A stretch of 22,648 nt of DNA. Origin: a virus. The translations under genes and the position numbers were made by a program. Of the stretch, positions 101 through 12,756 are shown piece by piece. Positions within the stretch are counted from its first letter, which is position 1. Each line of letters begins with the position of its first letter. The DNA lies in IMG/VR virus record IMGVR_UViG_3300017772_000146, positions 1 to 22,648 of that record. One strand, written 5' to 3'. Below the pieces are notes generated by a model. The model was given only the letters and a program-made list of their open reading frames with translations, was not told where the DNA came from and made no database searches.

Positions 101-133
101 TATAAATCCATTTAAAAAAATATTAAATAATAC

Positions 134-161
134 TTGCATTTAAATCTAAGATTGCTATGTT
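134..161 (+). promoter_or_regulatory. Sigma70-like promoter with palindromic operator in the spacer
   Basis: The -35 box is TTGCAT (134-139), the spacer is 16 bases and the extended -10 is TGC-TATGTT (153-161). The spacer contains the palindrome AATCTAAGATT (143-153). It drives the 61-codon gene starting at 188. The same layout with near-identical sequence recurs on the minus strand at 12673-12700, which makes both predictions much stronger. A protein bound to the palindrome would cover the polymerase contact region, so repression is the simplest reading (inference). Confidence 0.75.
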
Positions 162-187
162 TAAGTCAAGAAAACGGAGGAACATAA

Positions 188-373
188 ATGAAATTATTTA
201 TAAAATTAGTATTAATTTCTATATTTAACAAAAAGTATATTAATTGGAATCAATTAAGTTTAGATCTTGCTTTTTCTTTAGCGAAAACAAATCTTTTGTT
301 TCACCCTGAAGATAAGCCATTTAATAAACTTCTTACTAATAATGAAATAAAAATATTAGTTAGCGACGATTAA
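188..373 (+). CDS. Small protein of unknown function, only plus-strand gene
   Basis: This 61-residue protein is not recognised. The start is well supported: GGAGG (176-180) sits seven bases before ATG, behind a good promoter, and the gene is followed directly by a strong terminator hairpin. The N-terminus is hydrophobic and basic (MKLFIKLVLISIFNKK), then there is a mixed helical region and an acidic end (LVSDD). I see no clear signal peptidase site, helix-turn-helix or cysteine motif. It is transcribed against the late operon and shares its promoter/operator type with the metallopeptidase insert near 12.6 kb. An accessory or regulatory protein expressed outside the late programme is therefore plausible. 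Confidence 0.7.
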   Translation: MKLFIKLVLISIFNKKYINWNQLSLDLAFSLAKTNLLFHPEDKPFNKLLTNNEIKILVSDD

Positions 374-389
374 ATATATTATAAAAAGT

Positions 390-420
390 AAAATGGCGGG
401 ATCATAACTCCCGCCATTTT
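390..420. terminator. Bidirectional intrinsic terminator
   Basis: An 11-base perfect stem, AAAATGGCGGG (390-400) and CCCGCCATTTT (410-420), with a nine-base loop. U-rich tracts follow in either reading direction because the stem is bounded by A4 and T4-5. It lies between the convergent plus-strand gene (ending 373) and the last late gene (ending 515), so it can stop both transcripts. Confidence 0.9.
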
Positions 421-514
421 TGTGTCCTAACAAGTGTCCAATTTGTCGTCAAACACAAAGCATAATCAAAGATGAAAAGCGTTCTTTCTTTTTTGCTTAT
501 ACTTATTTTTAAGC

Positions 515-697
515 TTACATCAATATAGTTATAAGAGTAGCAATAGATATTCCTGCAATGATCCAACCATAAATCTCTTGCCGTGTTGGTCGCGTTGCTA
601 AATCTTTCTGTATTTGATCTAGTTTCTCAAATAATTTCTCTATGTCTTTCATAACTTTATTGATCATTTCTTTTTGAGTATATCCGTTATCGGCCAT
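515..697 (-). CDS. XhlA-like coiled-coil protein with C-terminal membrane anchor
   Basis: A 60-residue protein with a charged heptad-like region (about residues 8-40: KEMINKVMKDIEKLFEKLDQ) and a single membrane helix at the extreme C-terminus (about 43-60, IYGWIIAGISIATLITILM). This layout matches small phage lysis accessory proteins of the XhlA type, found next to holins, though sequence similarity could not be tested. AAGGGG lies upstream of the ATG. It is the last gene of the late operon, about 95 bases before the terminator. A role in holin regulation or membrane fusion at lysis is inferred from architecture and position. Confidence 0.65.
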   Translation of the reverse strand: MADNGYTQKEMINKVMKDIEKLFEKLDQIQKDLATRPTRQEIYGWIIAGISIATLITILM

Positions 698-747
698 TTA
701 AAAGCCCCTTACAATGTAGAGAGCAACCACAACAAAGTATTTTACAA

Positions 748-891
748 CTACATTTTGCCGTCATCGTCAATCCAATCCCATTCTTTAAATTTTAAAATTT
801 CTTTTTCTAGTTTATCAACCTTACTGATAATAAAATAAATTGATTTTAATAAAAAGTAAAATGCGACGATCCCCATAAAAATTTGTTCCAT
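748..891 (-). CDS. 47-residue single-span membrane protein
   Basis: Start ATG at 891 is preceded by a near-ideal AGGAGG (minus strand, spacing about five), and the stop of the preceding gene runs into this ribosome site. The protein begins with a membrane helix (FMGIVAFYFLLKSIYFIISK, residues 5-24), then a short charged helix (KVDKLEKEILKFKE) and a tryptophan/aspartate-rich tail (WDWIDDDGKM). It sits among holin-like and coiled-coil genes at the end of the late operon, so a lysis-associated role is likely. The family is not recognised. Confidence 0.7.
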   Translation of the reverse strand: MEQIFMGIVAFYFLLKSIYFIISKVDKLEKEILKFKEWDWIDDDGKM

Positions 892-902
892 AATGTCCTC
901 CT

Positions 903-1424
903 TTAATGTTGGTGCATATATGCCTCAAGATAAGTAACCCTATCTCGTAAATTATCTAACTCCCATGTTTCTAGTTGATTGTTTTCTAATGTTGTTATTT
1001 TTTTAAGTAAATCTTGCCACTCCCATTTCATCAATTCATAAGCTTGACTATCTTGTGGCGGATTGTTTAGTTCGCTTATGTATCTTGCTTGAAAATCCTC
1101 TAGTTTCCATTCAAGATCTCTAACCTCATTGTCTAAATTTTGATAATTTGCTTTTAATGTAGTTAATTCATTTTCTAAAAATTCTGCATTGTAAGCAATT
1201 TGTTCAAGCGCGTATATTTTTTCATATAATACAGCAATGTCATTTGATACCATTGTGCTTTCTTTTAATTGATAAAATTCATATTCTATGTTATTCATGC
1301 GGTCGTCAATACCCGTTAAAGTATTAACAATGTTTGTAACTGATTGAAACCCCGCGCCTATTGATCCAAGTAACGTTATACCCGTTACAACTAAGGCTAG
1401 ATTATCTTTTAATTTTTTGATCAT
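903..1424 (-). CDS. Membrane-anchored long coiled-coil protein, lysis-cassette hypothetical
   Basis: A 173-residue protein with an N-terminal hydrophobic segment (about residues 9-34, ALVVTGITLLGSIGAGF) followed by about 130 residues of predicted coiled coil (repeated EYEFYQLKES, LEQIAYNAEFLENELTTLK and RDLEWKLEDFQARY patterns). It resembles an elongated envelope-spanning or antiholin-like protein, but no lipobox or second membrane span is visible, so a spanin call is not justified. Its ATG overlaps the stop of the preceding 34-residue ORF (TAATG at 1422-1426) and lacks a good Shine-Dalgarno, which implies translational coupling. Confidence 0.7.
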   Translation of the reverse strand: MIKKLKDNLALVVTGITLLGSIGAGFQSVTNIVNTLTGIDDRMNNIEYEFYQLKESTMVSNDIAVLYEKIYALEQIAYNAEFLENELTTLKANYQNLDNEVRDLEWKLEDFQARYISELNNPPQDSQAYELMKWEWQDLLKKITTLENNQLETWELDNLRDRVTYLEAYMHQH

Positions 1425-1528
1425 TATATCTTACAAGAATCTCCGCAATCGTCATTAAATTCTTGAGAAGTATCTACAAATTGTGGGTTGTCGGTTATAA
1501 AATTTTCGGGTAATTCAAACTCGCCCAT
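1424..1528 (-). CDS. 34-residue acidic microprotein with CGDSC motif
   Basis: Reads MGEFELPENFITDNPQFV onward to FNDDCGDSCKI. It is strongly acidic, with a closely spaced cysteine pair (C-G-D-S-C) near the C-terminus. Both ends are coupled by TAATG overlaps: its ATG uses the stop of the upstream Cys-rich peptide, and its own stop gives the ATG of the coiled-coil gene. The protein is soluble and of unknown function. The overlaps at both ends are the main argument that it is translated. Confidence 0.55.
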   Translation of the reverse strand: MGEFELPENFITDNPQFVDTSQEFNDDCGDSCKI

Positions 1529-1566
1529 TACCTACCACCACAACAACCATTACCACAACAGTCCAT
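1528..1566 (-). CDS. 12-residue cysteine/glycine-rich micropeptide
   Basis: The ORF reads MDCCGNGCCGGR and stops. It follows a very strong ribosome site: GGAGGA, encoded in the last Gly-Gly codons of the upstream gene, lies five bases before the ATG. Four of twelve residues are cysteine in two CC pairs, which could bind metal or form disulfides. It ends in TAATG, which starts the next ORF. It may be a genuine micropeptide or simply a loading site delivering ribosomes to the two downstream coupled genes. Confidence 0.5.
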   Translation of the reverse strand: MDCCGNGCCGGR

Positions 1567-1568
1567 TG

Positions 1569-1781
1569 TTATCCTCCTAGTTTTATTAAGATCTCGGTAA
1601 TTGCTGAATTTAGCTCTTGCTCTCTCATTGCAAGAGAAATTAAATCATCTTTTGCGTCGTTAATTTGTACGATTAAAACGGCAACTTCTTGTTGTAGATC
1701 ATTCACGGTTTTAAAAAGCCAAGCTACAAGACCCGCTAGACCGCCCTGTAATATTTGATTTAAATTAACAGTTGCTTTCAT
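1569..1781 (-). CDS. 70-residue membrane/coiled-coil protein, lysis cassette
   Basis: An N-terminal membrane helix (about residues 8-25, ILQGGLAGLVAWLFKTV) is followed by a helical coiled-coil-like region (DLQQEVAVLIVQINDAKDDL). The start overlaps the holin stop (TAATG), so the two are translated together. Size, topology and position next to the holin suggest a holin partner or antiholin. No family is assigned. Confidence 0.65.
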   Translation of the reverse strand: MKATVNLNQILQGGLAGLVAWLFKTVNDLQQEVAVLIVQINDAKDDLISLAMREQELNSAITEILIKLGG

Positions 1782-1999
1782 TAATCCTCAAATGTTGCCT
1801 TTGGTTTATATTGCTCTAAAGCGTGTTGAATCACGGTTATAAATGAACTTAAAAAAGCTACGCCAAGTAATTCAAATAATTGAGCGTCTATAATTCCCGT
1901 TGAATTTGCTAAGTATAGTGAAAGCGCAGATTGCAGTCCCGTACGAAATGCTTTTGAAAACATAAATTTCCAATATGCTTTCCAATTATTTTTTTTCAT
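1781..1999 (-). CDS. Phage holin, r1t-like
   Basis: A 72-residue protein with a basic, aromatic start (MKKNNWKAYWKFMFSKAFRT) and two hydrophobic helices (about 19-33, GLQSALSLYLANSTG, and about 41-60, LFELLGVAFLSSFITVIQHA), with a charged tail (EQYKPKATFED). Length, the W...F...RTG.Q layout and the two spans match r1t-type phage holins, which form membrane lesions that release or activate the endolysin. GGAGGA lies directly before the ATG. It overlaps the upstream zinc-ribbon gene by four bases (ATGA) and the downstream membrane protein by TAATG. Confidence 0.75.
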   Translation of the reverse strand: MKKNNWKAYWKFMFSKAFRTGLQSALSLYLANSTGIIDAQLFELLGVAFLSSFITVIQHALEQYKPKATFED

Positions 2000-2130
2000 T
2001 CTTCCTCCAATATTGAGATTTGTTTTTTATTATACTTGGAGCATTCTTTGTTTCTACAATGGAAACCTTTATTTTTATTATTATAGTCCCATTGTAAAAA
2101 ATTTTTACATTCGGGACAAGATATTTTCAA
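1996..2130 (-). CDS. 44-residue zinc-ribbon microprotein (TTG start)
   Basis: Translation from TTG at 2130, behind AGGAGGT, gives a basic 44-residue protein with two cysteine knuckles, CPEC (C5-x2-C8) and C25-x4-C30 (HCRNKEC), the usual spacing for a treble-clef or zinc-ribbon fold. It ends in an acidic EEE and overlaps the holin start by ATGA. Such small zinc ribbons in phages can act in transcription or protein-protein contacts; here it sits in the lysis cassette and its role is unknown. The TTG is tight on the Shine-Dalgarno (about four bases), but no other start fits. Confidence 0.7.
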   Translation of the reverse strand: MKISCPECKNFLQWDYNNKNKGFHCRNKECSKYNKKQISILEEE

Positions 2131-2138
2131 TTTACCTC

Positions 2139-2741
2139 CTAAAGAGGTGCAATTCCTTTTGTTATGTAATTTTTTATTAAATTAGTATTACTATAAATTT
2201 GATCTAACTTTTCTTTATAATTTGGTGTTAAATAATCATCATTTGACGCTTTGTTGTCGTTGTTGGAATCTCCATAATTTGTGGTTAAATTTATTGCGGT
2301 TATTTCTAGAGTTACTTTTTCTCCTGCATTCATAGATTTTGCAATTTTGTCGTAGAATTTTTTATATGCGTTTCTGCTAGATCCAATAAACCCGTCTTTG
2401 CTAACATCTAAATCTTGTTGAGTATCACCTACAAGAACGCAACCCGCCGAATTTTCGTCGGTGTTACCACTATGAAAAAGCACCCATTTAAAGTTTGGAA
2501 TATCTTTAATTTCTAACATTCCGAAATGATCCGCGCCATAACGCGCAGAATATTTATTGTGAAATCCGCCCTCTTTTCTAAATTCTACGGGATATGTTCC
2601 GTAAGGAATAGCGGTCTCTCCATATACTTTAACGTCGCGTATTTCGTCCTCTAGCGTATAACATTCAAAGACGCCGTCTATAAATAGCATTCCATTTGTT
2701 GCGTCATTACCAAATTGATGACGAATAAGATTAATTTTCAT
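2139..2741 (-). CDS. DUF5675-like protein, candidate cell-wall (lysis) enzyme
   Basis: 200 residues. The N-terminal ~150 residues match the DUF5675 pattern: MKINLIRHQFGNDATNGMLF, a CYTLEDEIRD strand, IPYGTYPVEFRK and the conserved HSGNT...SAGCVLVG segment (His about 91, Cys about 101). The H...SAGC arrangement is reminiscent of L,D-transpeptidase-type active sites, and members often occupy the phage lysis locus. Enzymatic activity is therefore inferred, not shown. A low-complexity Asn/Asp linker (about 157-169) leads to a ~30-residue amphipathic C-terminus (NYKEKLDQIYSNTNLIKNYI) not typical of the family. It is the only endolysin candidate here and lies just upstream of the holin. Start coupled to the previous gene by TAATG. 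Confidence 0.7.
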   Translation of the reverse strand: MKINLIRHQFGNDATNGMLFIDGVFECYTLEDEIRDVKVYGETAIPYGTYPVEFRKEGGFHNKYSARYGADHFGMLEIKDIPNFKWVLFHSGNTDENSAGCVLVGDTQQDLDVSKDGFIGSSRNAYKKFYDKIAKSMNAGEKVTLEITAINLTTNYGDSNNDNKASNDDYLTPNYKEKLDQIYSNTNLIKNYITKGIAPL

Positions 2742-3043
2742 TATTCAGGCTTTGGATTATCGGCTTTGACTTGAGCAATATGATCTTTCCAATTTGTAGT
2801 TTCATTAACTCCGTCCCAATATTGCATGTCTAGTTGCTCTCCTATTGGTAAATAAGCATTTTGTCTTGCCTCAATGTAGCCAAATTGTTGGTCATTCCAT
2901 TTAGAATTACCTAAATCTATCTTCGCTTGTGCGTAATCATCATCAGAAAATTCTGATACAATTCCATTTACTGATTTATTAATTGGTTTAGCGTCCTCAA
3001 TTTCTTGGTCTGCTAACGCTTGTAGTTCTTCTTTAGTAGCCAT
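2741..3043 (-). CDS. Tail fibre assembly/XkdW-like hypothetical
   Basis: A 100-residue acidic protein. The C-terminal half holds a pattern seen repeatedly in small proteins after phage tail genes: RQNAYLPIGEQLDMQYWDGV, then WKDHIAQVKADNPKPE. The R..AY.PI.EQLD...W...W...I..VK...PKP layout resembles XkdW-like and tail fibre assembly proteins, whose exact role is unclear; chaperoning of fibre folding is often proposed. The N-terminus (EELQALADQEIEDA) is helical. AGGA precedes the ATG. It lies between fibre and lysis genes, consistent with an assembly factor. Confidence 0.6.
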   Translation of the reverse strand: MATKEELQALADQEIEDAKPINKSVNGIVSEFSDDDYAQAKIDLGNSKWNDQQFGYIEARQNAYLPIGEQLDMQYWDGVNETTNWKDHIAQVKADNPKPE

Positions 3044-3072
3044 ATTTTTATCCTATCATATATTAATTGGTT

Positions 3073-3606
3073 TTATTCTTTTAATCCATATAAAACAAAA
3101 TTGCCTTTTGTTATATTACCTGTATCAAAATATATTAGTATCCCGTCAACAGTAGTCAGTTCCTTTAATATTGCTCCCTCAAATTGCCCCAACATTAATT
3201 TCGTTCCACCGTCTGATAAATAATTGTTATATATAACCATTTTCGTGTTATCACCGCTGTCGTTAGCAGAATATATATAAGCAACACCGTGATGACCTGA
3301 AGTACTAGAATTGTCCGTTGAGCCCGACATACTTATTTGATTTCTACCCGCAAGTCCTAAGTTATTGTATTGAGAAGAAATAAAAGATTGATCGGTTCTT
3401 GCATAAGCAAGTCCCATAACATAATTACTATTTGAGTTGCCCGTACCGCTTTGCGTAAATCTTCCCATTAAATCTGCACCGCCTGTAGCAGGAACTACAT
3501 CAGAATAATATAAAACACAAGTATTATAATCACTTGTTATTCCCGTTAATGTAACCGATCCGCTATTACTAGCAGTAGCCGTACTTAATTGAACAAAATT
3601 ACTCAT
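3073..3606 (-). CDS. Tail tip/receptor-binding-like protein, paralogue 3 of 3
   Basis: 177 residues, rich in Ser, Thr, Gly and Asn with alternating beta-strand patterns and no predicted helices or transmembrane segments. It ends GNITKGNFVLYGLKE, the G-x(4)-G-x(4)-YG terminus shared with its two upstream neighbours. It starts with ATG overlapping the previous stop (ATGA, 3603-3606). Central motifs such as SSTSGHHGVAYIYSAND suggest a beta-sandwich. The location after the fibre gene and the multiplication of the family suggest a receptor-binding or virion decoration role (inference). Confidence 0.65.
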   Translation of the reverse strand: MSNFVQLSTATASNSGSVTLTGITSDYNTCVLYYSDVVPATGGADLMGRFTQSGTGNSNSNYVMGLAYARTDQSFISSQYNNLGLAGRNQISMSGSTDNSSTSGHHGVAYIYSANDSGDNTKMVIYNNYLSDGGTKLMLGQFEGAILKELTTVDGILIYFDTGNITKGNFVLYGLKE

Positions 3607-4124
3607 AATATTCCATATACCACTAGCTTACCGCCACCAATACGACTTGCAGTTTCGTTCATATCAACAACAATTCCGTCATAAGAAGTTGTGTTTTGTA
3701 TTCTACCAATCCCAAAAATAGCTCTATGGTTATCACTAGCATATTCTGTACTCTCCCAAATACAAGCAGAAGTAAATGCTTGAAATGGATTGCCTACATA
3801 AACAACACCATTACCCGCTCTACCGCTATCGTCTGCACCTGCAAAGGTATTCGTCCAACGAGTATCGCTTGTACTTCTACTATCACTAAAACTCGCCTCC
3901 GCTTTTAACCTATATAGTGCATACTCATAAACGCCACCGCTTTCAACGCTACCGTCAGACGCTTTTACTAATCTGATATTTACGCCTGTATCAGTTGAGT
4001 TCTCTCCAACTATTCCAACGCCAACTATTTTATATAAAGAAAAATCAGCAGAAAATATATCATCTATCTGCATAGATTGAACTCCTGTTGTTAATGTAAC
4101 TGATTTAATTTTTTCTATACTCAT
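3603..4124 (-). CDS. Tail tip/receptor-binding-like protein, paralogue 2 of 3
   Basis: 173 residues of beta-rich sequence. It begins IKSVTLTTGVQSMQIDDIFS, has the central GAD(D)SGRAGNGVVYVGNPF region and ends ASRIGGGKLVVYGIL, matching the terminus of both neighbours. The N-terminal strand-turn-strand (SLYKIVGVGIV...VNIRLVKASDGSV) aligns by eye with the YKIHFVTYTL...CRFIEGGTV segment of the upstream copy. ATGA overlaps join it to both neighbours. Divergence between copies is high, so the duplication is old or under diversifying selection. Confidence 0.65.
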   Translation of the reverse strand: MSIEKIKSVTLTTGVQSMQIDDIFSADFSLYKIVGVGIVGENSTDTGVNIRLVKASDGSVESGGVYEYALYRLKAEASFSDSRSTSDTRWTNTFAGADDSGRAGNGVVYVGNPFQAFTSACIWESTEYASDNHRAIFGIGRIQNTTSYDGIVVDMNETASRIGGGKLVVYGIL

Positions 4125-4693
4125 AAAGTAACCCCATATAAAGAAATTGTTCCCGTAAGATTACTACCACTATTTAAACCTAATATTCTAAATCCATTAA
4201 CCGTGCTTTTTTGATCCATAGTTCCACCTCCGTGTGATTTGAATAAATTATTTGAGTTGTTAAGTCCTGTAAAATGTGTGCTTATAGAAGTATATAAGTT
4301 GCTATCCCCTGCGTTGTATATGTAAAAATAACCACTACCACCCTTACCATTTGCGCTTGCCGAACTTTCGCCAATCTCAATTGCGGTTGCTGAAGTACTA
4401 TTAGCATGTATATCTGCGTTACTATCTTCGTTATTGCCCTGCGACAAAATTGTAAATAGACCTTTTTTATAAACGCTACTGCTCTCGACCGTTCCACCCT
4501 CTATAAATCTACAACCAAACTCTTCATAGCTTGCTCCTTTAAGAGTATATGTTACAAAATGAATTTTATACTTACTCTCATTAATGCTTGTAAAATCTAT
4601 ATTTGCAACTGCACTAGGTGTTTGTGTTTGAATTAATACTAAATCTTGAACTGCACCACCGCTTAAACCAAATCTTGCACTACCTAAAGGCAT
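4121..4693 (-). CDS. Tail tip/receptor-binding-like protein, paralogue 1 of 3
   Basis: 190 residues, beta-rich, first of the three-gene family. It starts MPLGSARFGLSGGAVQDLVL, with a Gly-rich lead absent from the other two, and ends SGSNLTGTISLYGVTL. The segment GKGGSGYFYIYNAGDSN corresponds to the YIYSANDSGD and GVVYVGN segments of the other copies. The extra N-terminal ~10 residues might dock this copy to the fibre encoded just upstream (inference). It overlaps the next gene by ATGA. Confidence 0.65.
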   Translation of the reverse strand: MPLGSARFGLSGGAVQDLVLIQTQTPSAVANIDFTSINESKYKIHFVTYTLKGASYEEFGCRFIEGGTVESSSVYKKGLFTILSQGNNEDSNADIHANSTSATAIEIGESSASANGKGGSGYFYIYNAGDSNLYTSISTHFTGLNNSNNLFKSHGGGTMDQKSTVNGFRILGLNSGSNLTGTISLYGVTL

Positions 4694-4701
4694 AAAGGCT
4701 C

Positions 4702-5412
4702 CTAACTAAATTCTTGTAATGCGTTTATTAGTGGAGTTCCCGCGTCAAAAAATAAGAAAGTAACTAAATCAATTGCATTTGCACCCGACGAAACGGTGTA
4801 TCCTCCACCGCCCGCAGTTTTTCCCGTTACATGACCTCCGCCATTTATTGTTATTTGATTAATTGCAACCGTTTTTGCACTAGACGCGTGTTGCGTTATT
4901 TGTAATGTAAATGTTGATACCCCATTTGTTGCAACGTTTGTAAAATCTATATCGGTTATATTTTCCGTTAATGTTATTGATCCCGTATTTCCGTTAGCTA
5001 AATTTATTGCAATAGCGTTTGATGATGAAGTTAAAGCAACGTCTGTTTCTGCATAATCCTTAAGAACTATTGCGCTTGCTACTTGGTCTGCAAAGGCAAC
5101 CTCGCTATCAATAGCTAAATTAACCGTCACGGCGCCCGATACACCACCGCCCGAGAGGTTTGTTCCCGCTGTAACCCCCGTAATATCACCCTCGCCTATA
5201 AAATTAACCCAAGATGATCCGTCATAAAATTGTAAAGTATTTGAATCTTTTAGAAAACAAAACATTCCCTCCGCGTCGCTTGTACCAAGCGCTGTATCAC
5301 GTGCGGAAGAATCCGCATATACTTGAACAACTTGGTCTTGTATAAACGTTTGAAATTCCGTTGCGCTTATTAAATCTCCTGTAGAGTAACTTTTCCAACC
5401 CGCGCCCGCCAT
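4702..5412 (-). CDS. Tail fibre protein
   Basis: 236 residues. The N-terminus (WKSYSTGDLISATEFQTFIQDQVVQVY, then EGMFCFLKDSNTLQFYDGSSWVNF) is the phage fibre/baseplate attachment style often seen in uncultured phage tails. It is followed by GDITGVTAGTNLSGGGVSG, a recurrent fibre motif preceding shaft or knob domains, and a Ser/Thr/Asn beta-rich C-terminus. There is no chaperone-type autocleavage domain. The Shine-Dalgarno is modest (AAGGAA). It lies between the distal tail protein and the three tip proteins, and probably forms the trimeric fibre connecting them to the tail tip (inference). Confidence 0.75.
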   Translation of the reverse strand: MAGAGWKSYSTGDLISATEFQTFIQDQVVQVYADSSARDTALGTSDAEGMFCFLKDSNTLQFYDGSSWVNFIGEGDITGVTAGTNLSGGGVSGAVTVNLAIDSEVAFADQVASAIVLKDYAETDVALTSSSNAIAINLANGNTGSITLTENITDIDFTNVATNGVSTFTLQITQHASSAKTVAINQITINGGGHVTGKTAGGGGYTVSSGANAIDLVTFLFFDAGTPLINALQEFS

Positions 5413-5429
5413 ATTATAAAAATTCCTTT

Positions 5430-6695
5430 CTAGCTATAAGCAAACCTCGTGCCCTCTCCTAGCTTAGCTTGTCCTAAAATCCAAGCAGATGATCCTGCGG
5501 GAGATAATGTAACCTCCCAAGACCATGATTGAGTACTAGCATTCACGTTATGTTTTATGCTTTCAATAAATAGTTCGTCCTCTATTGTAGTCGCGTTCGG
5601 ATTTTTTACAATTACCTTAATACGATCTCCAAATTCTCTCCCTAATGCTTGTGGCCATATTGCCGTGTTTTGTCTTGGGTTTGCAACTAATCTATCAAAC
5701 CTCAAAATAGGTAAAGAGGTTTCTGCAATTTTTTGTTCTATTAAAGATAATACGTTTGCGTCGCTCGTGTTTAATGTAGTTTTTGCCGAGCTTTTTGCGG
5801 TGTATCTTATAACGCTATCTGCGTCCGATATATATTGAGTTGATCCGCCCGATCTAGTCCATTCATAAACATTAATAATCTCATTGTCATCAAAAGACAA
5901 AGAAACGTCGCTATACGGCAAGTTAGTCCCCGTGTTACTAAACGTCGCTTGTACATTGACCGCGTTTGTATTAGAAAGTCTGTAATCTCTATTTCTAAAT
6001 GTTGCCTTTCCGTCTTTACTAATAAAAAATTGAGCATTCTCAGATATTTCACATTCTCGTAAAGCAGACAAAACATTATCCGTTAATGATTGACTTGTTA
6101 CGTTTAAAGTACCCGTGTTTATATCTCGTCTATTTGACGGCCACCCGATTGCGTTTAATATTCTTGTTATCCTAGCTGATGATAATTCCGTTTCGTCTTC
6201 GTAACCTATTCTTGTTGTTTGGCCTAAATTACTGAATCCCGCTCGCCCTAAACGCCACGACCGAGTATCAAGTAATTGAGATTGAAATAATTTAAAAGCG
6301 TCTGATCCGCTAAAGGTAACAATTGAATCTTGACCCTGAGCGGTAAATTTAACGGGGATATTTGTTAAAAATCCCTCAAATATGACATAGGTTGATGAGC
6401 TATATGTTGCTGAAATTTTAAATCTTTTCAATGGTTGTATTTTTGTTCTTGAGTTTGTTGAGTCGTAGTATGGAGAACTTGTATTACTTGGATTAAATCT
6501 ATTATCGGCGTTAGATAAAAGTATTTCAGCAGACCCGCTTACAAATTGACCGAGTTCGTTTTGACGCCCTCTAGTTGTATTAAATGCTCTAACATATTCG
6601 CTAACGTCTGTAAATGATTGAGATTCCTCAAAAGGCTCGCTATCAAACGCAATTTCAACAGTAATATTGACATTACTATCAAAAGCAACGCTCAT
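5430..6695 (-). CDS. Distal tail / baseplate hub protein
   Basis: 421 residues, soluble and beta-rich. The opening (VNITVEIAFDSEP, then TDVSEYVRAFNTTRGRQNELG) and the GSAEILLSNADNRFNPSNTSSPYY...IQPLKRFKI block are typical of siphophage minor tail/baseplate proteins that follow the tape measure. The C-terminal section (QALGREFGDRIKVIVKNPN ... IESIKHNVNASTQSWSWEVT ... LSPAG) matches the hub domain of the same proteins. It overlaps the tape measure stop by ATGA (6692-6695). It should cap the tail tube and carry the fibre; that role is assigned from position and motif style. Confidence 0.75.
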   Translation of the reverse strand: MSVAFDSNVNITVEIAFDSEPFEESQSFTDVSEYVRAFNTTRGRQNELGQFVSGSAEILLSNADNRFNPSNTSSPYYDSTNSRTKIQPLKRFKISATYSSSTYVIFEGFLTNIPVKFTAQGQDSIVTFSGSDAFKLFQSQLLDTRSWRLGRAGFSNLGQTTRIGYEDETELSSARITRILNAIGWPSNRRDINTGTLNVTSQSLTDNVLSALRECEISENAQFFISKDGKATFRNRDYRLSNTNAVNVQATFSNTGTNLPYSDVSLSFDDNEIINVYEWTRSGGSTQYISDADSVIRYTAKSSAKTTLNTSDANVLSLIEQKIAETSLPILRFDRLVANPRQNTAIWPQALGREFGDRIKVIVKNPNATTIEDELFIESIKHNVNASTQSWSWEVTLSPAGSSAWILGQAKLGEGTRFAYS

Positions 6696-9127
6696 GCTAA
6701 GCCCTCAATTCCTCTATCGCTTGCTTTTTTAACGGCTATCGCAACCGCGTCTTGTATTGATTGCTTGTCTTGTAAGGCGCCCTCAACATTTACGTTAATG
6801 TTTGTATTGTTCATAACTCGGAATGCGTCAGATCCCGCAAAGGAAGAATTTGATCCACCGCCACTTGATAGTGAAACAAATTTATCGGCTTGACCTCCGC
6901 TTGTATCAAAAACCGTTGGAGATTTTCCACCGCCACCGCCACCAAAAGACGAGGAAACAGGAGTACCCGATAAATCAAATATCTTTTTAAATTCTAAATA
7001 TAAATCTCCTAATGATCCTCCAACCGCATTAACCATTTGTTGTAACCCCTCTTTTAATGCCCCTATTGAAGAAACGTCGGCCAATGCCTCGTCTAGTTCT
7101 TGTTTTGCAATTGCTTGCTCTAAAACATTTTCAATAGAGCGCTCGGTTGCTTTGTTTAAGTCTTTTGTTGCTTTTTCTAAATCCTCCGTTGCTTTTTTTA
7201 CTTTTTCTTTTTCTCTTGCAACATCATCTAAAGCGCTTTGATAATCCGCTTGCGCTTGCTCCTCTTGTCTTGTTGCAGAAGTACTCGCCTCAATTAATTC
7301 GTTTAATTTTTGTTTTGCTAGTTGTAGTTCTAATTGTTGAATTTTTGTTCTTTCCTCAACGTTATTTAATTTTTCAACTGCTTGTCTTTGTCTTTCAATT
7401 GCTAGTTCTTCCTCTAGCGTTACTTGTTTTGATTTTTCTTTTTCTTTGTTTAATTCGTCAAGCATGGTATCTGCTTTAATTTGAGCTAATGTTTGCTTTT
7501 CTTGAGCTTTTGTTAATTTATCTTTTGCGGATTTTTCGTCATTTTGTAATTCAATAACATTTTCTTCAATATCTTTTAATTTTTGATAGGCGCCAAGTAC
7601 TTTTTGCAATAAGCCTAATGATTTTTCTTTTCTTTCCTTATTAAGTTTTATTTCTTCTTCTGTTAATTCTTTAGTAACGTCGCTTTGATCTATTAGCGCG
7701 TCGCTTACGTTCATTGATTCTATTTCGTACCTATGAGCGTTGTTAATAGCGTCCTTTTGTACCGAGTTTAAGAAATTTTGCTCTTGCTCTAAATCTCTCA
7801 TTGCTTGAGCAAAGTCTTGATGAGTTTTAATTAGCGCTTGTTCTTTCTCCTCTGCTTTTTGTTGAGCGTTGCTATATTTGTCATACTCAACACCGCCCAT
7901 GCCTAAAATTAGTCCTTGCTCCTCCATAAGTTTTGTGCCCTCCGCAATTGCTTTGTTTAAATCGCTTTGTGGATCTAACACGTTTATTATGCCCTGAGCT
8001 AATCTATCAAAGAATCCAATAGCGTCCTCAAGCGCGGGAGATACTCGCTCCATTATTAACAATCCTATTTCGCCGAACTTGTCTCCAAGCACGGTTAATT
8101 GACTTTGTAAAGATCCCATTTGTTTCTCTGAAACTTCTTGAGTAGTTCCGCCCGAATCCCTCAGCGCTGATTCGTATTCTCTTATTTTGTTCGTTGATCC
8201 CGATAGAATTTTGACCGCGTCGGCTACACCTCTGTTTAGTCCTAATTGATCCAACGTACTTGCTTTTAATTCGTCGGACATTGGTTTTAGTACTCTATCT
8301 AATTCCTCAACAATATCGGCAACATTTTTCATATTGCCCTGCGCGTCAAACATCTCAAGTCCTAGCTTTTTAAATTCATCTCCATTCTTTGCGGTTGCTC
8401 TTGGAATATCACGAAGTACTTGATTTAATTTTTCTCCACCCTCTGCGCCCTTTACACCTGCGTCCGCGAAAACTGCTAACACCGCGACGCCCTCCTCAAT
8501 ATCTTTATTTACTACTTTTAAGGCCGATCCTGCTTTTGAAGTAAGCGCCTCTGAGAATTGTTGAACGCTTGCGTTTGCTAATGTATTTGCTTTCACAAGA
8601 ACGTCTGTAACCCTAGTCAAATTTGTCAAGTTTTGTTGCGCGTCCGATACCGTTAGTCCTAATGCGGATTGAGCGTCTGTCGCAAGATCTGTTGCGGTGG
8701 CCATGTCAAACATACCCGCTTGAGCGAATTTTGCTACTTGAGGTAATGCTTCAATTTGTTGCTCGGCGTCTAAACCCGCTGACGCTAGAAAGAAAAAGGA
8801 TTCGGCGGTTTCTTTAGCGCTAAATGTTGTCTCTAAAGCTACTTGGCGAGCCGTACGCCCCATATCCTCTTGTTGTTCAACGGTGGCGTTCATAATGGCC
8901 AACGATTGATTCATTGCGTCATCAAAAGCAATAAATTCTTTTGTTGCGGATACTAAGGCCTTTGACATTGCTACGGCACCCGCAACAACACCAATCTTCA
9001 TTGCCGTACCGAATTTCCCCAAACCTTTGGCGCTTTTATCTCCGCTATTACCAATCCCCGATAATTGACGCTTTGCTAATTCAGCGCCTTTTGTAACTAT
9101 GTTTAAAACTATATTTGATACGGCCAT
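6692..9127 (-). CDS. Tail tape measure protein
   Basis: 811 residues. The N-terminal ~360 residues form a TP901/PhageMin_Tail-type domain: FIAFDDAMNQSLAIMNATVE, ARQVALETTFSAKETAESFF, LASAGLDAEQQIEALPQVAK and SALGLTVSDAQQN are classic core motifs. A hydrophobic stretch near residues 45-65 (MKIGVVAGAVAMSKALVSAT) precedes it. A long coiled coil (about 480-690, rich in EKEKSKQ/LEKATKDLNKATE) is followed by a Gly/Ser linker (SSSFGGGGGGKSPT). At about 1.5 angstrom per residue, a family rule of thumb, it would set a tail of roughly 120 nm. Overlaps the downstream gene by ATGA; AGGAAA precedes the ATG. Confidence 0.92.
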   Translation of the reverse strand: MAVSNIVLNIVTKGAELAKRQLSGIGNSGDKSAKGLGKFGTAMKIGVVAGAVAMSKALVSATKEFIAFDDAMNQSLAIMNATVEQQEDMGRTARQVALETTFSAKETAESFFFLASAGLDAEQQIEALPQVAKFAQAGMFDMATATDLATDAQSALGLTVSDAQQNLTNLTRVTDVLVKANTLANASVQQFSEALTSKAGSALKVVNKDIEEGVAVLAVFADAGVKGAEGGEKLNQVLRDIPRATAKNGDEFKKLGLEMFDAQGNMKNVADIVEELDRVLKPMSDELKASTLDQLGLNRGVADAVKILSGSTNKIREYESALRDSGGTTQEVSEKQMGSLQSQLTVLGDKFGEIGLLIMERVSPALEDAIGFFDRLAQGIINVLDPQSDLNKAIAEGTKLMEEQGLILGMGGVEYDKYSNAQQKAEEKEQALIKTHQDFAQAMRDLEQEQNFLNSVQKDAINNAHRYEIESMNVSDALIDQSDVTKELTEEEIKLNKERKEKSLGLLQKVLGAYQKLKDIEENVIELQNDEKSAKDKLTKAQEKQTLAQIKADTMLDELNKEKEKSKQVTLEEELAIERQRQAVEKLNNVEERTKIQQLELQLAKQKLNELIEASTSATRQEEQAQADYQSALDDVAREKEKVKKATEDLEKATKDLNKATERSIENVLEQAIAKQELDEALADVSSIGALKEGLQQMVNAVGGSLGDLYLEFKKIFDLSGTPVSSSFGGGGGGKSPTVFDTSGGQADKFVSLSSGGGSNSSFAGSDAFRVMNNTNINVNVEGALQDKQSIQDAVAIAVKKASDRGIEGLA

Positions 9128-9349
9128 TTATTTCCTTTTCTTGTACTCCGCCTCAGTAATTGCTCTTTGTTTATTTAATTCGGTTTGTTCAAATATATAA
9201 AAAGCAACCCATTGCTCATACTCCAATGAACTCATTCTAGTGATTAATTCGCCCCGTGTCATTCCTAGTTCCCGAGCAAGTTTAAATTGAAAATAGAAGT
9301 CGCTATTAGTCTTGAAATTCGTCCGCGTCTGCGGAACCTCCGATTCCAT
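9128..9349 (-). CDS. Tail assembly chaperone, lambda T-like (DUF4035-type)
   Basis: The 73-codon frame contains LARELGMTRGELITRMSSLEYEQWVAFYIFEQ, the hallmark of lambda gpT/DUF4035 proteins, which in lambda is made only as the frameshifted extension of gpG. Here the frame is +1 relative to the upstream G-like gene and overlaps its last 44 bases. The ATG at 9349 is directly preceded by an in-frame TAA and has no Shine-Dalgarno, so independent initiation looks weak. Expression as a fusion of about 174 residues is more likely. The last codons run to KRK just before the tape measure. Confidence 0.75.
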   Translation of the reverse strand: MESEVPQTRTNFKTNSDFYFQFKLARELGMTRGELITRMSSLEYEQWVAFYIFEQTELNKQRAITEAEYKKRK

Positions 9350-9653
9350 TTAATTCGTTAATAGCTAAAAATATACGATCAACAATGTTTGAATCTTTGT
9401 TATATAGCTCATTAATTAAATCGTCATCAAGTTCGGGATCAATAACGCATGTTTTTAATAATTCTTTTTGATAATCAAAAGCGTCTTTTCCCTCGTCATC
9501 AAGAATACGACCCAAATTAATTTGCATTTGTTTGGAAATGCCTTTGAGCTTTATAGAAACGCCCCATTCTTGAATTATAAATTCTTGTTCGGGAACGTTC
9601 GGCAGACTACTAATTGAATCTGCCGTTAGTCTTTTAATATTTTTATTTGTCAT
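9306..9653 (-). CDS. Tail assembly chaperone, lambda G-like
   Basis: 115 residues, acidic and helical, placed between tail tube and tape measure as expected for the major tail chaperone. It begins NIKRLTADSISSLPNVPEQE, followed by a strand pair (FIIQEWGVSIKLKGIS) and helical segments (LLKTCVIDPELDDDLINELY), resembling XkdN/gpG-type proteins. In this family the C-terminus is normally extended by ribosomal frameshifting into the T frame. Here the in-frame stop comes two codons after a TTT-C site. It presumably coats the tape measure protein during tube polymerisation. Confidence 0.75.
   Translation of the reverse strand: MTNKNIKRLTADSISSLPNVPEQEFIIQEWGVSIKLKGISKQMQINLGRILDDEGKDAFDYQKELLKTCVIDPELDDDLINELYNKDSNIVDRIFLAINELNGIGGSADADEFQD
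9314..9317 (-). other. Candidate +1 ribosomal frameshift site (TTT-C)
   Basis: Reading the G frame (minus strand) gives GAA TTT CAA GAC TAA. A tRNA-Phe on TTT can re-pair with TTC after slipping forward one base, which enters the T frame (AAG ACT AAT AGC). Within the overlap I found no other codon that re-pairs as well after +1 or -2 movement. A GGAGG lies about 20 bases upstream, too far to resemble the release-factor-2 gene arrangement. The site is a prediction from base pairing and gene arrangement only. Confidence 0.4.
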
Positions 9654-9677
9654 TTGTGCGTCCTAACTAATCAAGTT

Positions 9678-10088
9678 CTAATGAGTACCGCGTGTTACCG
9701 CACCCGAAACTTGCATATCTGCGCTAAAACCAACAACATCTCCTACGGGAGAAGAAGTTGAGTATGAGGTTATAAATGCCTCGCCTGTATATTTTATTTT
9801 ACCGCTTGCAGTTCCTTCGGGTGAATACTCATAAGAAAGCGAACCTGCTTGACCTACTACGGCGCCAAGAATATCGTCTGCTGTACTATCCCAAGCACCC
9901 GCAATAGATATAGTTGCGTCCTTTAAACCAACAATATATTCTTTATTGTCGTCGCCAAGCGTTGTTGTTTCTGCTAAATCAACGGTTTGTGGAAAATCTA
10001 CTGAATTAACGTATGCGCTAATGTCGGTTAATGATCCGCTTGCATTGTCTAGTTTAAAACTACTGTCTTTACCATGTACGAAAGCCAC
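9678..10088 (-). CDS. Tail tube protein, short paralogue (GTG start)
   Basis: 136 residues. MAFVHGKDSSFKLDNASG, TVDLAETTTLGDDNKEYIVG and SPVGDVVGFSADMQVSG align by eye with the larger protein encoded immediately upstream. The TVDLAETT.G..NK.YI.G block and the closing SPVGD-FS-D-Q strand are features of siphophage major tail proteins. The start is GTG (10086-10088 on the plus strand as CAC) with a strong AGGAGG nine bases away, built into the end of the preceding gene. A single-domain tube protein of this size could form the whole tail tube or a specialised ring. Confidence 0.8.
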   Translation of the reverse strand: MAFVHGKDSSFKLDNASGSLTDISAYVNSVDFPQTVDLAETTTLGDDNKEYIVGLKDATISIAGAWDSTADDILGAVVGQAGSLSYEYSPEGTASGKIKYTGEAFITSYSTSSPVGDVVGFSADMQVSGAVTRGTH

Positions 10089-10100
10089 CTTATATTCCTC

Positions 10101-10814
10101 CTATTTGTTTCTTCCAAATCCTACTATAACAGAAAATGACGGGGTTGTTCCACCTATTGTAAATACGACTTTTAGGTATCTATTAACCGTTGTACCTTTT
10201 GCGACCGCCTTTACTTCCGCCCCTGCACTAGTAAGTCTTGTGAATGCAACCAAATCAGCATAAGTTGAATTATCTGCTGAATGGGTAATTTTTGCGTCTA
10301 ATGTTGGAGATGATCCGCTTACAGTACTTGCAATGATAAAAGCGCCCCCGCCATTTGCCGTTGCCGTTGTATTATCACGTGCCGTACCGCTTGCGGTTGA
10401 AGTCTTTGTTGCGTTCTCTAATACTTTACCCGTAAATAAACCCTCGTCTGCTTGATAATCTACTGAAAAAGCAACGATATCTCCAACGGGAGAACTTAAT
10501 CCGTAGTTTGTAATATTACCTTTTCCAAATGTTGCGTGATCGTTTGCGTCTAATCCGTCAATCCCGATTGCGAGAATTTTATCGGTTGATGATCCTAATG
10601 ACGTTTGAATTGGAGAATCTGCCGTTGCGTCATAAAACCCCGCCAATGCAATCGTTCCGTCTTTTGCACCCGTAATATAAGTCTTGTTTGAATTTCCAAA
10701 CGTGGTGGATTCGGCCAAATCAACAGTTCTTGTTGAATCAGCGGTTTGTAAAAAAGAACTTATTTCTGTTTGATCTAAAAATACTTTTGTATCTTTACCA
10801 TGTTTAAAAGCCAT
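10101..10814 (-). CDS. Tail tube protein, long paralogue with C-terminal domain
   Basis: 237 residues. The first ~135 match the short paralogue (MAFKHGKDTKVFLD, TVDLAESTTFGNSNKTYITG, SSPVGDIVAFSVDYQ). After residue ~145 follows an extra Thr/Ala/Gly-rich beta domain (SGSSPTLDAKITHSADNSTY, then RYLKVVFTIGGTTPSFSVIVGFGR) resembling add-on domains of tail tube or head decoration proteins. The ATG is immediately preceded by the stop of the 26-codon Arg-rich ORF, and a GAGG is about ten bases upstream. Which paralogue is the main tube subunit cannot be told from sequence. Confidence 0.8.
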   Translation of the reverse strand: MAFKHGKDTKVFLDQTEISSFLQTADSTRTVDLAESTTFGNSNKTYITGAKDGTIALAGFYDATADSPIQTSLGSSTDKILAIGIDGLDANDHATFGKGNITNYGLSSPVGDIVAFSVDYQADEGLFTGKVLENATKTSTASGTARDNTTATANGGGAFIIASTVSGSSPTLDAKITHSADNSTYADLVAFTRLTSAGAEVKAVAKGTTVNRYLKVVFTIGGTTPSFSVIVGFGRNK

Positions 10815-10895
10815 TTATCTTTTACCTCTGTTTCTTCTATTTCGCCTGCGGTTTCTTGTGCTTGAACCTCCGCCATAGCTACGTCCATAACCCAT
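10815..10895 (-). CDS. 26-residue Gly/Arg-rich micropeptide
   Basis: ORF from ATG at 10895: MGYGRSYGGGSSTRNRRRNR, then RNRGKR and TAA immediately before the ATG of the long tail tube gene. About a third of residues are arginine, placed after a Gly/Tyr/Ser head, so it could bind nucleic acid or act as a ribosome feeder. The nearest Shine-Dalgarno-like GAGG lies about 13 bases upstream, which is long. Exact fit between the two flanking genes is the best support. Confidence 0.45.
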   Translation of the reverse strand: MGYGRSYGGGSSTRNRRRNRRNRGKR

Positions 10896-10900
10896 ATTAG

Positions 10901-11092
10901 TTATTCTTCCTCTTGCTTGTTAGTTAATTCTTGTAATTTTTTTTCTTTATATTCTTTTGTGATTTTAATTAATTCGCCCTGATCAACTAACCATTTAATT
11001 GACTTTTGCGGAATATCTTTATTTGATATCGCTTGTCCTTTTGCGAAATATTTATCTTTAAATGTCAATCCATTCACTACTTCGTATGTCAT
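10901..11092 (-). CDS. Small head-tail region hypothetical
   Basis: 63 residues: a short beta-rich front (EVVNGLTFKDKYFAKGQAI), then IPQKSIKWLVDQGELIKI and a charged helical tail (KEYKEKKLQELTNKQEEE). The K.G..I......S..WLV.QGEL pattern resembles small conserved proteins near the head-tail junction of siphophages, several of which are structurally SH3-like. It shares a WL/G...GEL-type look with the 62-residue protein at 13949-14137, but I cannot establish homology. The start overlaps the previous stop by ATGA. Confidence 0.6.
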   Translation of the reverse strand: MTYEVVNGLTFKDKYFAKGQAISNKDIPQKSIKWLVDQGELIKITKEYKEKKLQELTNKQEEE

Positions 11093-11499
11093 GCTATTAC
11101 CTCAACTAAAAATTCAACGCCTAATAATTCAACGTTGTTTAATTCAAACGCCCCATAATCCCGTGCCTCAACTACTCGTAAGGTGCTTGCAATCCCTCCA
11201 AGCGTTTTATCGCTTTCAATTGCTACTTTCATGCTCGAGGATCCCGAGCTATTTAAAAAAGCGTCTAACGTTTCTTGACTATCTTGCCCGTCAATATTAG
11301 ATACAAATAGTCTAACAGGAATTATAAATTTGTCAGAACCTCGCGCCATTGAAAAGTCATATTCTAAATTTTCCAATACGCTTACAACGGCTAGCGGTGG
11401 ATCAAACCTATGAGGAACGTATGAATAAACGCTTATATTAGATAGGTTGTTTCCAATGTTAGTTCCAATGGCCTGCCGTAATGAAGTAAGACTAGCCAT
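11089..11499 (-). CDS. Tail terminator / minor tail protein U-like
   Basis: 136 residues. SLRQAIGTNIGNNLSNISVYSYVPHRFDPPLAVVSV, then IPVRLFVSNIDGQDSQETLDAFLNSSG...VAIESDKTLGG and LLGVEFLVEVIA match the fold pattern of tail terminator and gpU-like proteins: N-terminal helix, a strand with P-hP, a paired helix with a long loop, and a final strand pair. It sits upstream of the tail tube genes as such proteins do. It probably forms the ring that ends tube polymerisation and joins the head. It begins within the last eight bases of the preceding gene. Confidence 0.7.
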   Translation of the reverse strand: MASLTSLRQAIGTNIGNNLSNISVYSYVPHRFDPPLAVVSVLENLEYDFSMARGSDKFIIPVRLFVSNIDGQDSQETLDAFLNSSGSSSMKVAIESDKTLGGIASTLRVVEARDYGAFELNNVELLGVEFLVEVIA

Positions 11500-11695
11500 T
11501 GTTTAGATCGTCCTCAATTGGCCAATGTTCGTTCGTTATGTTTTCCATTCGCCCGATAAATTGAATCTCACTATTATCAGTAAGCGCTTGAATAACATTT
11601 ATTTGATTTTTAAATTGCTCGTCGCATTCATTTGGAGAATTACCCTCCGTCCGTATTTCAATTGTTCCAACAACGGTGTAAATTATTTCTGTCAT
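11492..11695 (-). CDS. 67-residue hypothetical, first gene of tail segment
   Basis: Acidic protein: MTEIIYTVVGTIEIRTEGNS, then DEQFKNQINVIQALTDNSEIQFIGRMENI. It looks like a small alpha/beta fold with two strands, a helix and another strand. Family not recognised. No Shine-Dalgarno is present: the ATG follows a TATAAT box by only six bases, raising the possibility of a leaderless transcript. It overlaps the tail terminator-like gene start by eight bases, which favours coupled expression. Confidence 0.6.
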   Translation of the reverse strand: MTEIIYTVVGTIEIRTEGNSPNECDEQFKNQINVIQALTDNSEIQFIGRMENITNEHWPIEDDLNNG

Positions 11696-11701
11696 CTTTG
11701 A

Positions 11702-11730
11702 ATTATATCACGCCATAAGATAATTGTTAT
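11702..11730 (-). promoter_or_regulatory. Possible promoter for the tail segment
   Basis: On the minus strand ATAACA (11725-11730) and TATAAT (11702-11707) are separated by 17 bases. The -10 is a perfect consensus and the -35 matches four of six positions. It lies between the metallopeptidase insert and the tail genes. Transcription would begin at or within a base or two of the ATG at 11695. Confidence 0.4.
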
Positions 11731-11769
11731 ATAGTAAAAAAGCGTTTTGTGGATTTCTTGGGTTCGTCT

Positions 11770-12546
11770 TTATGCCGTCATTTGTTTGGATTTGTATTCA
11801 TCAATTTGTTGATCGGTAATTTTAGTCCAATGATTTTGTCCAACCCCGCGTTCGCTCTGCCATACAAGTCTTTCTTTATATTCTTTTCTATTGTTTGTTG
11901 TATATGTACATTTGTCTGCAATTGCAATTGATTTAAAATCTACCCCAATGAATCCCTCCATTGTTAGTTTCATTTGATCTACGCATTGTTGTGAATGGCG
12001 TATAGGATTTACGCTTGCGTTTGTATCAATGAATGATCTAAATAATATTTCTTGATACGCATGTGATCTGAAATACCCCGTTAGTTGAAGTAATCTATTT
12101 CTAAATGATTTGTCGTGGCCGTTTGTGTTTATATGTGCAATTTCATGAAGTAGAGTTTCATCATTCCAAGACCAATTGTTCATACTCATAGTTATTGTTG
12201 CGCTACCGCCTAGCCCGTGCATACATGCTCTGCCTTTACCCGTTGTTGAATTGTATGTTGATACGATTAGCCCACCGCCGTTATGAGATCCGCTAAAATT
12301 GTGCAATGTGTATTTTTTTGGTTTTTGCGGACATACCCAATCTACATTTACAAATTTACGTGGGTCAAAATTTTGTCTGTAATATTGTGAATTGATAATT
12401 TTGTTGCCCGCTCTTTTTAAAAGCTTTTGTGCTTGGGTTGGATCTAGTTTTATAATATCAACTATATCAGGCATGATCCAATTAAATTGCGGTGCGGATT
12501 TACCCGCCTGCCTTTCGGCTTGGTATGTTAGTTTTTGTTCATTCAT
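11770..12546 (-). CDS. HExxH metallopeptidase-like protein (SprT-like), moron
   Basis: About 258 residues from ATG 12546; an upstream in-frame TTG at 12570 exists but is less convincing. The sequence TLLHEIAHINTNGHDKSFR carries HExxH plus a third histidine six residues later (HEIAH...GH), the zinc-site pattern of SprT-like and related metallopeptidases. The flanks (CMHGLGGSATITMSM, LGG...STYNS) fit a beta-sheet edge next to the active site. The rest is not recognised, and the C-terminal ~90 residues contain conserved-looking C and W positions. It interrupts the head-to-tail gene order, has its own promoter and is coupled to a leader ORF, so it looks like an accessory gene. Substrate unknown. 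Confidence 0.7.
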   Translation of the reverse strand: MNEQKLTYQAERQAGKSAPQFNWIMPDIVDIIKLDPTQAQKLLKRAGNKIINSQYYRQNFDPRKFVNVDWVCPQKPKKYTLHNFSGSHNGGGLIVSTYNSTTGKGRACMHGLGGSATITMSMNNWSWNDETLLHEIAHINTNGHDKSFRNRLLQLTGYFRSHAYQEILFRSFIDTNASVNPIRHSQQCVDQMKLTMEGFIGVDFKSIAIADKCTYTTNNRKEYKERLVWQSERGVGQNHWTKITDQQIDEYKSKQMTA

Positions 12547-12622
12547 TGAGAGATTTAATCCATTCTGCAAGAGATACTTGATCCCCGTGCAATGAGTCGA
12601 TACAGATATTTGAATTAGGCAT
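12539..12622 (-). CDS. 27-codon leader ORF upstream of metallopeptidase gene
   Basis: ATG at 12622 follows GAAAGGGGAACT, the best ribosome site in this insert. The ORF reads MPNSNICIDSLHGDQVSLAE to WIKSLNE and ends with TGA overlapping the downstream ATG (12546), which has no Shine-Dalgarno of its own. The peptide has no obvious domain. It either feeds ribosomes to the metallopeptidase, acts as a regulatory leader, or forms an N-terminus through a +1 frameshift. Position directly behind the promoter is clear from the sequence. Confidence 0.55.
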   Translation of the reverse strand: MPNSNICIDSLHGDQVSLAEWIKSLNE

Positions 12623-12672
12623 AGTTCCCCTTTCGGTGTTTTTATATGTATTTATGTAATTCATATAAGTTC

Positions 12673-12700
12673 AGTATAGCAATCTAAGATTTAATTGCAA
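12673..12700 (-). promoter_or_regulatory. Strong promoter with palindromic operator, twin of 134-161
   Basis: On the minus strand: -35 TTGCAA (12695-12700), 16-base spacer, extended -10 TGC-TATACT (12673-12681). The spacer carries AATCTTAGATT (12681-12691) four bases after the -35, the same offset as at 143-153. From -35 to TAT of the -10, 23 of 25 positions equal those of the plus-strand promoter. It drives the leader ORF and metallopeptidase gene. Confidence 0.8.
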
Positions 12701-12740: not shown

Positions 12741-12756
12741 AATAAAACGTTTTATT
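12741..12756. repeat. 16-bp perfect AT-rich palindrome
   Basis: AATAAAACGTTTTATT reads the same on both strands, and two further flanking pairs match after one mismatch. It lies 41 bases upstream of the -35 box of the metallopeptidase promoter and 39 bases after the stop of the gp10-like gene. It may be a second operator or part of a weak terminator together with the A/T-only tract at 12777-12794. Confidence 0.6.

Follow-up and report, generated by a model that had tools for sequence, protein, structure and literature searches.

We analysed a linear virus fragment of 22.6 kb (IMG/VR record IMGVR_UViG_3300017772_000146, positions 1-22,648; hereafter the window), in which two promoters on opposite strands, P1 and P2, carry the same short palindrome, which we consider a probable operator of a phage-wide regulon. 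P1 lies at 134-161 on the plus strand, with the −35 box TTGCAT (134-139) and the extended −10 box TG-C-TATGTT (153-161), and P2 lies at 12673-12700 on the minus strand, with the −35 box TTGCAA (12700-12695) and the extended −10 box TG-C-TATACT; in both the spacer is 16 bp, within the 15-19 bp separation of sigma-70 hexamers. The P1 spacer contains operator O1 (AATCTAAGATT, 143-153) and the P2 spacer contains operator O2 (AATCTTAGATT on the minus strand, 12681-12691), both of which match AATCTWAGATT. The 25-base pattern TTGCA-N-TTAAATCT-W-AGATTGC-TAT has exactly two matches in the window, where none is expected, at 134-158 on the plus strand (TTGCATTTAAATCTAAGATTGCTAT) and at 12676-12700 on the minus strand (TTGCAATTAAATCTTAGATTGCTAT), the two copies agreeing at 23 of 25 positions, and it has no match in 100 dinucleotide shuffles even with three mismatches allowed. 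This confirms the original prediction, made from the letters of the window, of twin promoters having an identical palindrome in the spacer. Since the sequences flanking P1 and P2 are unlike, the 25-base match does not stem from a larger, recent duplication, and a recent copying of P1 into P2 is thus rejected. It is noted that a generic promoter scan of the window lists P2 (9/12) and not P1 (8/12), and that promoter-like sites are no more frequent in the window than in shuffles, so that the promoter call for P1 and P2 is founded on comparative evidence rather than on consensus. The P2 sequence is unchanged in loci L003 and L004, and in the P1 counterpart in L006/L028 (998-1025) AATC...GATT is intact while the spacer and the −10 box have diverged.

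The genes adjacent to the two promoters are those that had been described. P1 drives a 61-codon gene (188-373, plus strand) that faces the late operon and is separated from this convergent operon by a hairpin at 390-420, a probable bidirectional terminator, which was called on the minus strand and on the plus strand has a stem followed by a T-run. Homologues of the 61-codon gene in other phages (55% identity) are located within operons and lack the motif. P2 is followed by a 27-codon leader open reading frame (ORF; MPNSNICIDSLHGDQVSLAEWIKSLNE, 12539-12622, minus strand), which has a strong ribosome-binding site and overlaps the next ATG, and then by a metallopeptidase-like cargo gene (11770-12546, minus strand), which has the HEIAHINTNGHDKSF motif (HEIAH) and matches WLM weakly (E 7e-4, under the Pfam cut-off). 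This gene sits after an HK97-gp10-like neck gene (12795-13325, minus strand). About 40 bp 5' of P2 there is a perfect 16-bp palindrome (AATAAAACGTTTTATT, 12741-12756), which is also present in L003. Between a phosphoesterase gene and P1 (window 1-115; L005 545-720) there are two copies of CGTGTCCTATTTAGACGGTTTCCGTG and tandem copies of CCTACGTTTAAGGGTTTAACTCGTTAAATTTCAAAACAAAT; L028 is without these repeats, with P1 directly behind the phosphoesterase gene.

The window can be extended to most of the phage. Loci L004 and L015 match the window at 99.8% identity (L015 over 9.8 kb), L021 adjoins L004 with a 5-base overlap within the phosphoesterase gene (with L028 as the guide), and the contig names of L021, L004 and L015 bear the same sample number. 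From these we infer a full phage length of about 33 kb, nearly all of it being covered by the window, the 5' end of L015 and L021. In this phage there are at least six operator promoters, namely P1, P2, L015 303 and L021 1180, 868 and 5661. The one at L015 303-330 (TTGCATTTAAATCATAGATTGCTAACTT) corresponds to about position 22738 of the window, 90 bp past its right end, and is followed by the genes MANEKT, MSTRAT, TerS and TerL and by the late operon; its first gene extends with its 3' part into the window (22388-22648, minus strand), with the terminase and late genes downstream. The promoters at L021 1180 and 868 are ahead of two small genes that follow the replication gene, and the one at L021 5661 drives about 300 nucleotides that have no substantial ORF and close in a terminator-like hairpin. 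In L013, a close relative, operator copies are present at the same kinds of places, and a weight-matrix scan gave no intermediate sites, the scores being either above 32 or at background. Thus the further copies at gene starts that the original prediction called for are present, at least four just outside the window, and the idea of a small two-locus regulon is not borne out. The operator promoters are not limited to accessory genes, one of them leading into the terminase and late operon.

The untranslated region behind the L021 5661 promoter (5330-5636, minus strand) has a predicted fold of −74.5 kcal/mol (z −3.5), better than shuffles, and is possibly a phage non-coding RNA; Rfam gave no convincing hit for it, and neither the other loci nor the phage records contain a copy. 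Behind it, a Mom-family DNA-modification gene is found (L021 4616-5323, minus strand; Pfam Mom, E 1e-54), with a ParB-like protein next.

Related phages were surveyed in 98 loci (927 kb), most of which were retrieved through their terminase rather than through the motif; 6 of the AATCTWAGATT matches come from loci retrieved by motif and from the window. In these terminase-related marine phages there are 68 copies of AATCTWAGATT, as compared with 8 for the runner-up among 30 composition-matched palindromes and about 2 per control. With this enrichment and the shuffle test, a chance origin of the P1/P2 motif is rejected. The conserved core is the palindrome AATC-N3-GATT, for which there are 114 non-redundant sites, 109 of them (96%) at least partly outside ORFs of at least 70 codons; for 11 control palindromes (14 sites on average) the corresponding number is 29/155, and 17% of the bases are uncovered by ORFs. 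The sites are thus not at random positions in the relatives, and the predicted operator-like element at gene starts recurs there with its spacer motif conserved.

The sites occur in two registers, with the operator centre either 5-11 bp or 27-29 bp 5' of the −10 box, i.e., in the spacer between the −35 and −10 boxes or adjoining the −35 box. There are 54 spacer-type sites, among which some calls may have the wrong strand, and 23 sites abutting the −35 box. In the latter, the −35 box is exactly TTGACA in 19 of 23 and the −10 box is mostly TATAAT or TAATAT, and with such boxes an activator should be unneeded. Moreover, orthologous genes keep the palindrome while the surrounding promoter has changed between relatives at about 70% terminase identity, as with the MSTRAT gene in L013, L123 and L124 and with the palindrome placed after the SLT gene in L021, L120 and L124. 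In front of the MSTRAT gene, where L123 has AATCTTAGATTGACA...CCTAAAATT and L124 has AATCTAAGATTGACA...CCTAATAT, the palindrome runs into the −35 box, and in L118 (TTGACAAATAAATCTTAGATTAATAATAT) it is within the spacer. The palindrome is thus conserved independently of the promoter elements. It is common to phages with terminases only 56-57% identical, there being 12 sites in G013, and in G008 the variant AATC-N3-GGTT is present at four promoters, three of which have TTTAAATCACAGGTTTATAAT or nearly so. Taken together, the enrichment, the placement at promoters, the orthologous conservation and the at least six sites in this phage establish, as far as comparison of sequences can, that the palindrome is an operator. 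As a described regulatory site it was not found in the literature searched.

Some further arrangements of the palindrome are noted. At L126 13902-13953, a 52-bp stretch between divergent promoters contains three operators (AATCGAAGATT, AATCTCTGATT, AATCTTAGATT), which resembles a compound operator. In one clade (L120, L123, L124, L041, L051, L133) the operator promoters share TGGCCTAATAT at the −10 box and have a second conserved element, GGCC, just 5' of it. An unrelated contig with DnaB-like and deaminase-like genes (L018 4727-4754, minus strand; L019 3503-3530) has TTGCAATTAAATCGTAGATTGTTATTTT at a gene end before a short ORF, which we treat as probable chance, parallel use of the site being the alternative. 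Matches in L014, L016, L017, L020, L022 and L023 have no clear promoter-and-gene-start context and were set aside as probable chance.

The gene at P2 had been proposed to be an insert in the late operon, and the relatives bear this out. Six relatives (G009, G010, G011, G012, G017, G018) have nothing inserted at the junction behind the HK97-gp10-like gene, the next late gene following directly. In G016, which is almost identical to G009 there, the same junction holds a 93-codon gene whose promoter includes AATCTAAGATT, and in G008 and G015 it has a 75-codon gene behind AATCACAGGTT or AATCACTGGTT, so that other operator-bearing cargo is present in two further lineages. The P2 cargo thus has its own promoter and lies between genes that are adjacent in relatives, as morons do, and from the empty and alternative junctions we conclude that it is a moron-type insert and that such inserts bring the phage's own operator. 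Classical morons are described in prophages and are expressed from them. The P2 cargo is like them in having its own promoter in the late operon, in being missing from this junction in relatives and in giving way to other cargo elsewhere, and differs from them in that its promoter carries a regulon operator in apparently lytic phages.

It had also been predicted that the palindrome is read by a phage or host repressor not in the window, and the best candidate regulator is indeed encoded outside it, in the early region. Only five protein families are present in all 12 operator-bearing genome sets, namely the portal, TerL, TerS, a replication protein of the HTH_36 family and a small winged helix-turn-helix (wHTH) protein of 68-70 residues, which is encoded at L021 2703-2915 (minus strand) and at L013 4911-5117; none of the five is missing from all three operator-less sets. 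Its AlphaFold (AF2) model (mean predicted confidence, pLDDT, 80.8) has helices at 7-14 and 18-26, strands at 35-37 and 40-44 and a helix at 45-53, i.e., a helix-turn-helix, a two-strand wing and a third helix in fewer than 80 residues. Among known structures the best match is BldC (Z 7.9 over 54 residues, 13% identity), followed by the RdfS excisionase, BmrR and other MerR-type domains, such Z values being middling. Matches to curated families are weak, the best in Pfam being HTH_17 (0.001), with Phage_Cox and P22_Cro also weak, and in PHROG an excisionase/regulator family (E 0.0019).

The presence of the operator covaries with the recognition helix of this protein. Every surveyed wHTH locus with [T/K]RQ at the start of the helix has the operator, at 0.31/kb in long ones, and the 59 kb from the lineages with DRK (L053/L170), DRA (L182/L183) and KER (G007) contain no copy, against 18 predicted from the density in the others. 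The presence of the operator cuts across relatedness: L170 shares 72% identity with the window phage in terminase and 49% in the HTH_36 protein and has no operators, whereas G013 is 57% and 29% identical and has 12 sites. In G008, which has the variant site, the helix begins TRQA. In L170, TAAATA-N3-TATTTA is present twice, once just 5' of the wHTH gene and once 5' of another gene; this two-copy candidate is the only one from a search for alternative palindromes in G007, L170 and L183, in which none reached the threshold. In L120, L123 and L158 the operator is 5' of the wHTH gene itself, a pattern that suggests autoregulation. The universal presence, the covariation with the helix and the variant sites together make the wHTH protein the best candidate binder.

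Just 5' of the wHTH gene, several clades have a GC-rich hairpin in the leader (L120, minus strand, near 11219-11290; L124 near 8300-8396; L117 near 3990-4061; L013, minus strand, near 5118-5190; L170 near 6400-6485), in most with CCTTTCT on the loop side and a Shine-Dalgarno sequence like AGAAAGGA. It looks as though an RNA structure gated the regulator's translation.

Based on these data, we propose, with a probability of roughly 60%, that AATC-N3-GATT is the operator of a phage-wide lytic regulon that is read by the phage wHTH protein, probably a repressor, P1 and P2 being two of at least six promoters. Two wHTH molecules probably occupy the two half-sites. The operator is inside the core promoter, either in the spacer or touching a near-perfect TTGACA box, so that bound wHTH protein would most simply exclude RNA polymerase; with the −35-abutting promoters being near consensus, repression is the simplest reading, and strong steric repression from spacer operators has precedent (PMC7804116). 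From this arrangement we infer that the repressor would delay or cap the small early and middle genes, the promoter into the late operon, the untranslated RNA and the cargo genes during lytic infection, thereby timing the lytic programme, with cargo such as the metallopeptidase-like gene arriving with the operator in its own promoter.

Several points weigh against this proposal. Only three lineages are without the operator, with the wHTH loci having been fetched partly with the helix itself, so that few independent events are behind the covariation. The Foldseek E-values for the wHTH protein are weak (best 0.03), and the helix by which MerR proteins dimerise is absent from it. The nearest structural match, BldC, sits head-to-tail on direct repeats, AATTXXXX(C), and not on palindromes (PMC5859096), whereas the only conserved site here is an inverted repeat. 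The window phage itself has no operator ahead of its wHTH gene. Finally, operators centred near −40 are at the classic activator position, and an early regulator gene upstream of later controlled genes also suits an activator.

By contrast with repression, it is possible, if rather doubtful, that the same protein on the same operator is an activator, made early and turning on the middle and late operator promoters. This would be consistent with the wHTH gene belonging to the early operon, which precedes the blocks under control, with one operator cluster being centred at about −40, as for a class II activator, with the two registers being separated by about 21 bp and hence sharing one face of the helix, and with the −10 box often being weak in the window clade (TAACTT, TAAGTT). 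Against it are the perfect TTGACA and good −10 boxes of 19 of the 23 promoters in the −40 register, the spacer-centred sites, which suit strong steric repression, and a pair of divergent promoters at which the operators overlap both −35 boxes. Another reading, which we regard as unlikely, is that a host regulator binds the palindrome and that the phages adopted its site to sense the state of the host. A common host could explain why phages with such distant terminases have the palindrome in common; yet the operator follows the wHTH helix and not terminase relatedness (none in L170 at 72%, many in the group at 57%), and the half-sites are changed in related lineages. It is still more improbable that the binder is the HTH_36 protein, a replication-initiator-like protein that would double as a regulator: it is universal in operator-bearing phages and is encoded directly 5' of an operator promoter, but its recognition helix differs among operator-bearing clades while that of the operator-less L170 is close to that of the window phage, and with L170 at 49% identity having no operators and G013 at 29% having 12 it is disfavoured. 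Lastly, that the two copies are a plain strong promoter consensus or a recent promoter copy with no regulator, as two good extended −10 promoters in one window might suggest, is hardly credible, because the half-sites are kept while the registers and the −35 and −10 boxes change between clades, the P1 and P2 flanks differ and the enrichment is specific to AATCTWAGATT.

Neither an integrase (PF00589) nor an HTH_3/CI-like repressor (PF01381) was detected in any of 18 related records, several of them of 28-35 kb and several being fragments, the same searches being positive in all 14 control genomes; a search of the GTDB species genomes via the terminase gave no close relative, and no close phage isolate was found. 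The lack of an integrase and of an HTH_3 repressor and the lack of a close relative in GTDB genomes argue against the suggestion that the genes are expressed from a prophage, and a prophage switch is rejected on the former ground; the related phages are probably lytic.

It is useful to compare the operator with known systems. The lambda operators OR1 and OR2 lie around PR. Like operators of the lambda type, the sites here are short palindromes in the spacer or against the −35 box, several per genome, with a small phage helix-turn-helix protein as the binder (here a candidate); unlike them, they come with no detected CI-like repressor or integrase, are of 11-13 bp with an N3 centre, and are spread over the genome including the cargo rather than being in one switch region.

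The stoperators of cluster A mycobacteriophages, which are temperate, are asymmetric sites to which a monomer binds, and they affect elongation (PMC9283540, PMC6550527). There, as here, one short site has many copies per genome and phage groups differ in site and regulator together; the sites here, by contrast, are palindromes that lie at promoter positions, 96% of them outside ORFs, in phages with no detected integrase. The wHTH protein is like BldC, a small MerR-like wHTH protein, and the phage Cox/Xis proteins (PMC5859096; 8dgl, 4lhf, 4j2n) in its size of 68 residues and its predicted fold, and unlike them in that BldC reads direct repeats and Xis serves excision, while here the site is inverted and no integrase was found. 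CvkR, the MerR-type repressor of the type V-K CRISPR-associated transposon (CAST), also belongs to a mobile element and has one short palindrome (AnnACATnATGTnnT) at the promoters that it controls (PMC9938897), with the differences that it has a dimerisation domain and that its half-site and spacing are not those found here.

More tentatively, it may be that a widespread group of lytic marine phages runs a genome-wide regulon through a single BldC-like reader of palindromes, with site and helix diverging in step to form specificity groups (AATC-N3-GATT, AATC-N3-GGTT, TAAATA-N3-TATTTA) that resemble immunity groups in the absence of lysogeny, and with imported cargo being kept together with the matching operator in its promoter. 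The operator gives an uncultured phage group a concrete regulatory code, consisting of one site and one candidate protein, which can be tested without the host, in a cell-free system or an Escherichia coli reporter. The matched variants of site and helix provide a natural data set on the choice of DNA by a small wHTH protein, and cargo genes may be wired into the lytic programme of these phages by carrying the resident operator.

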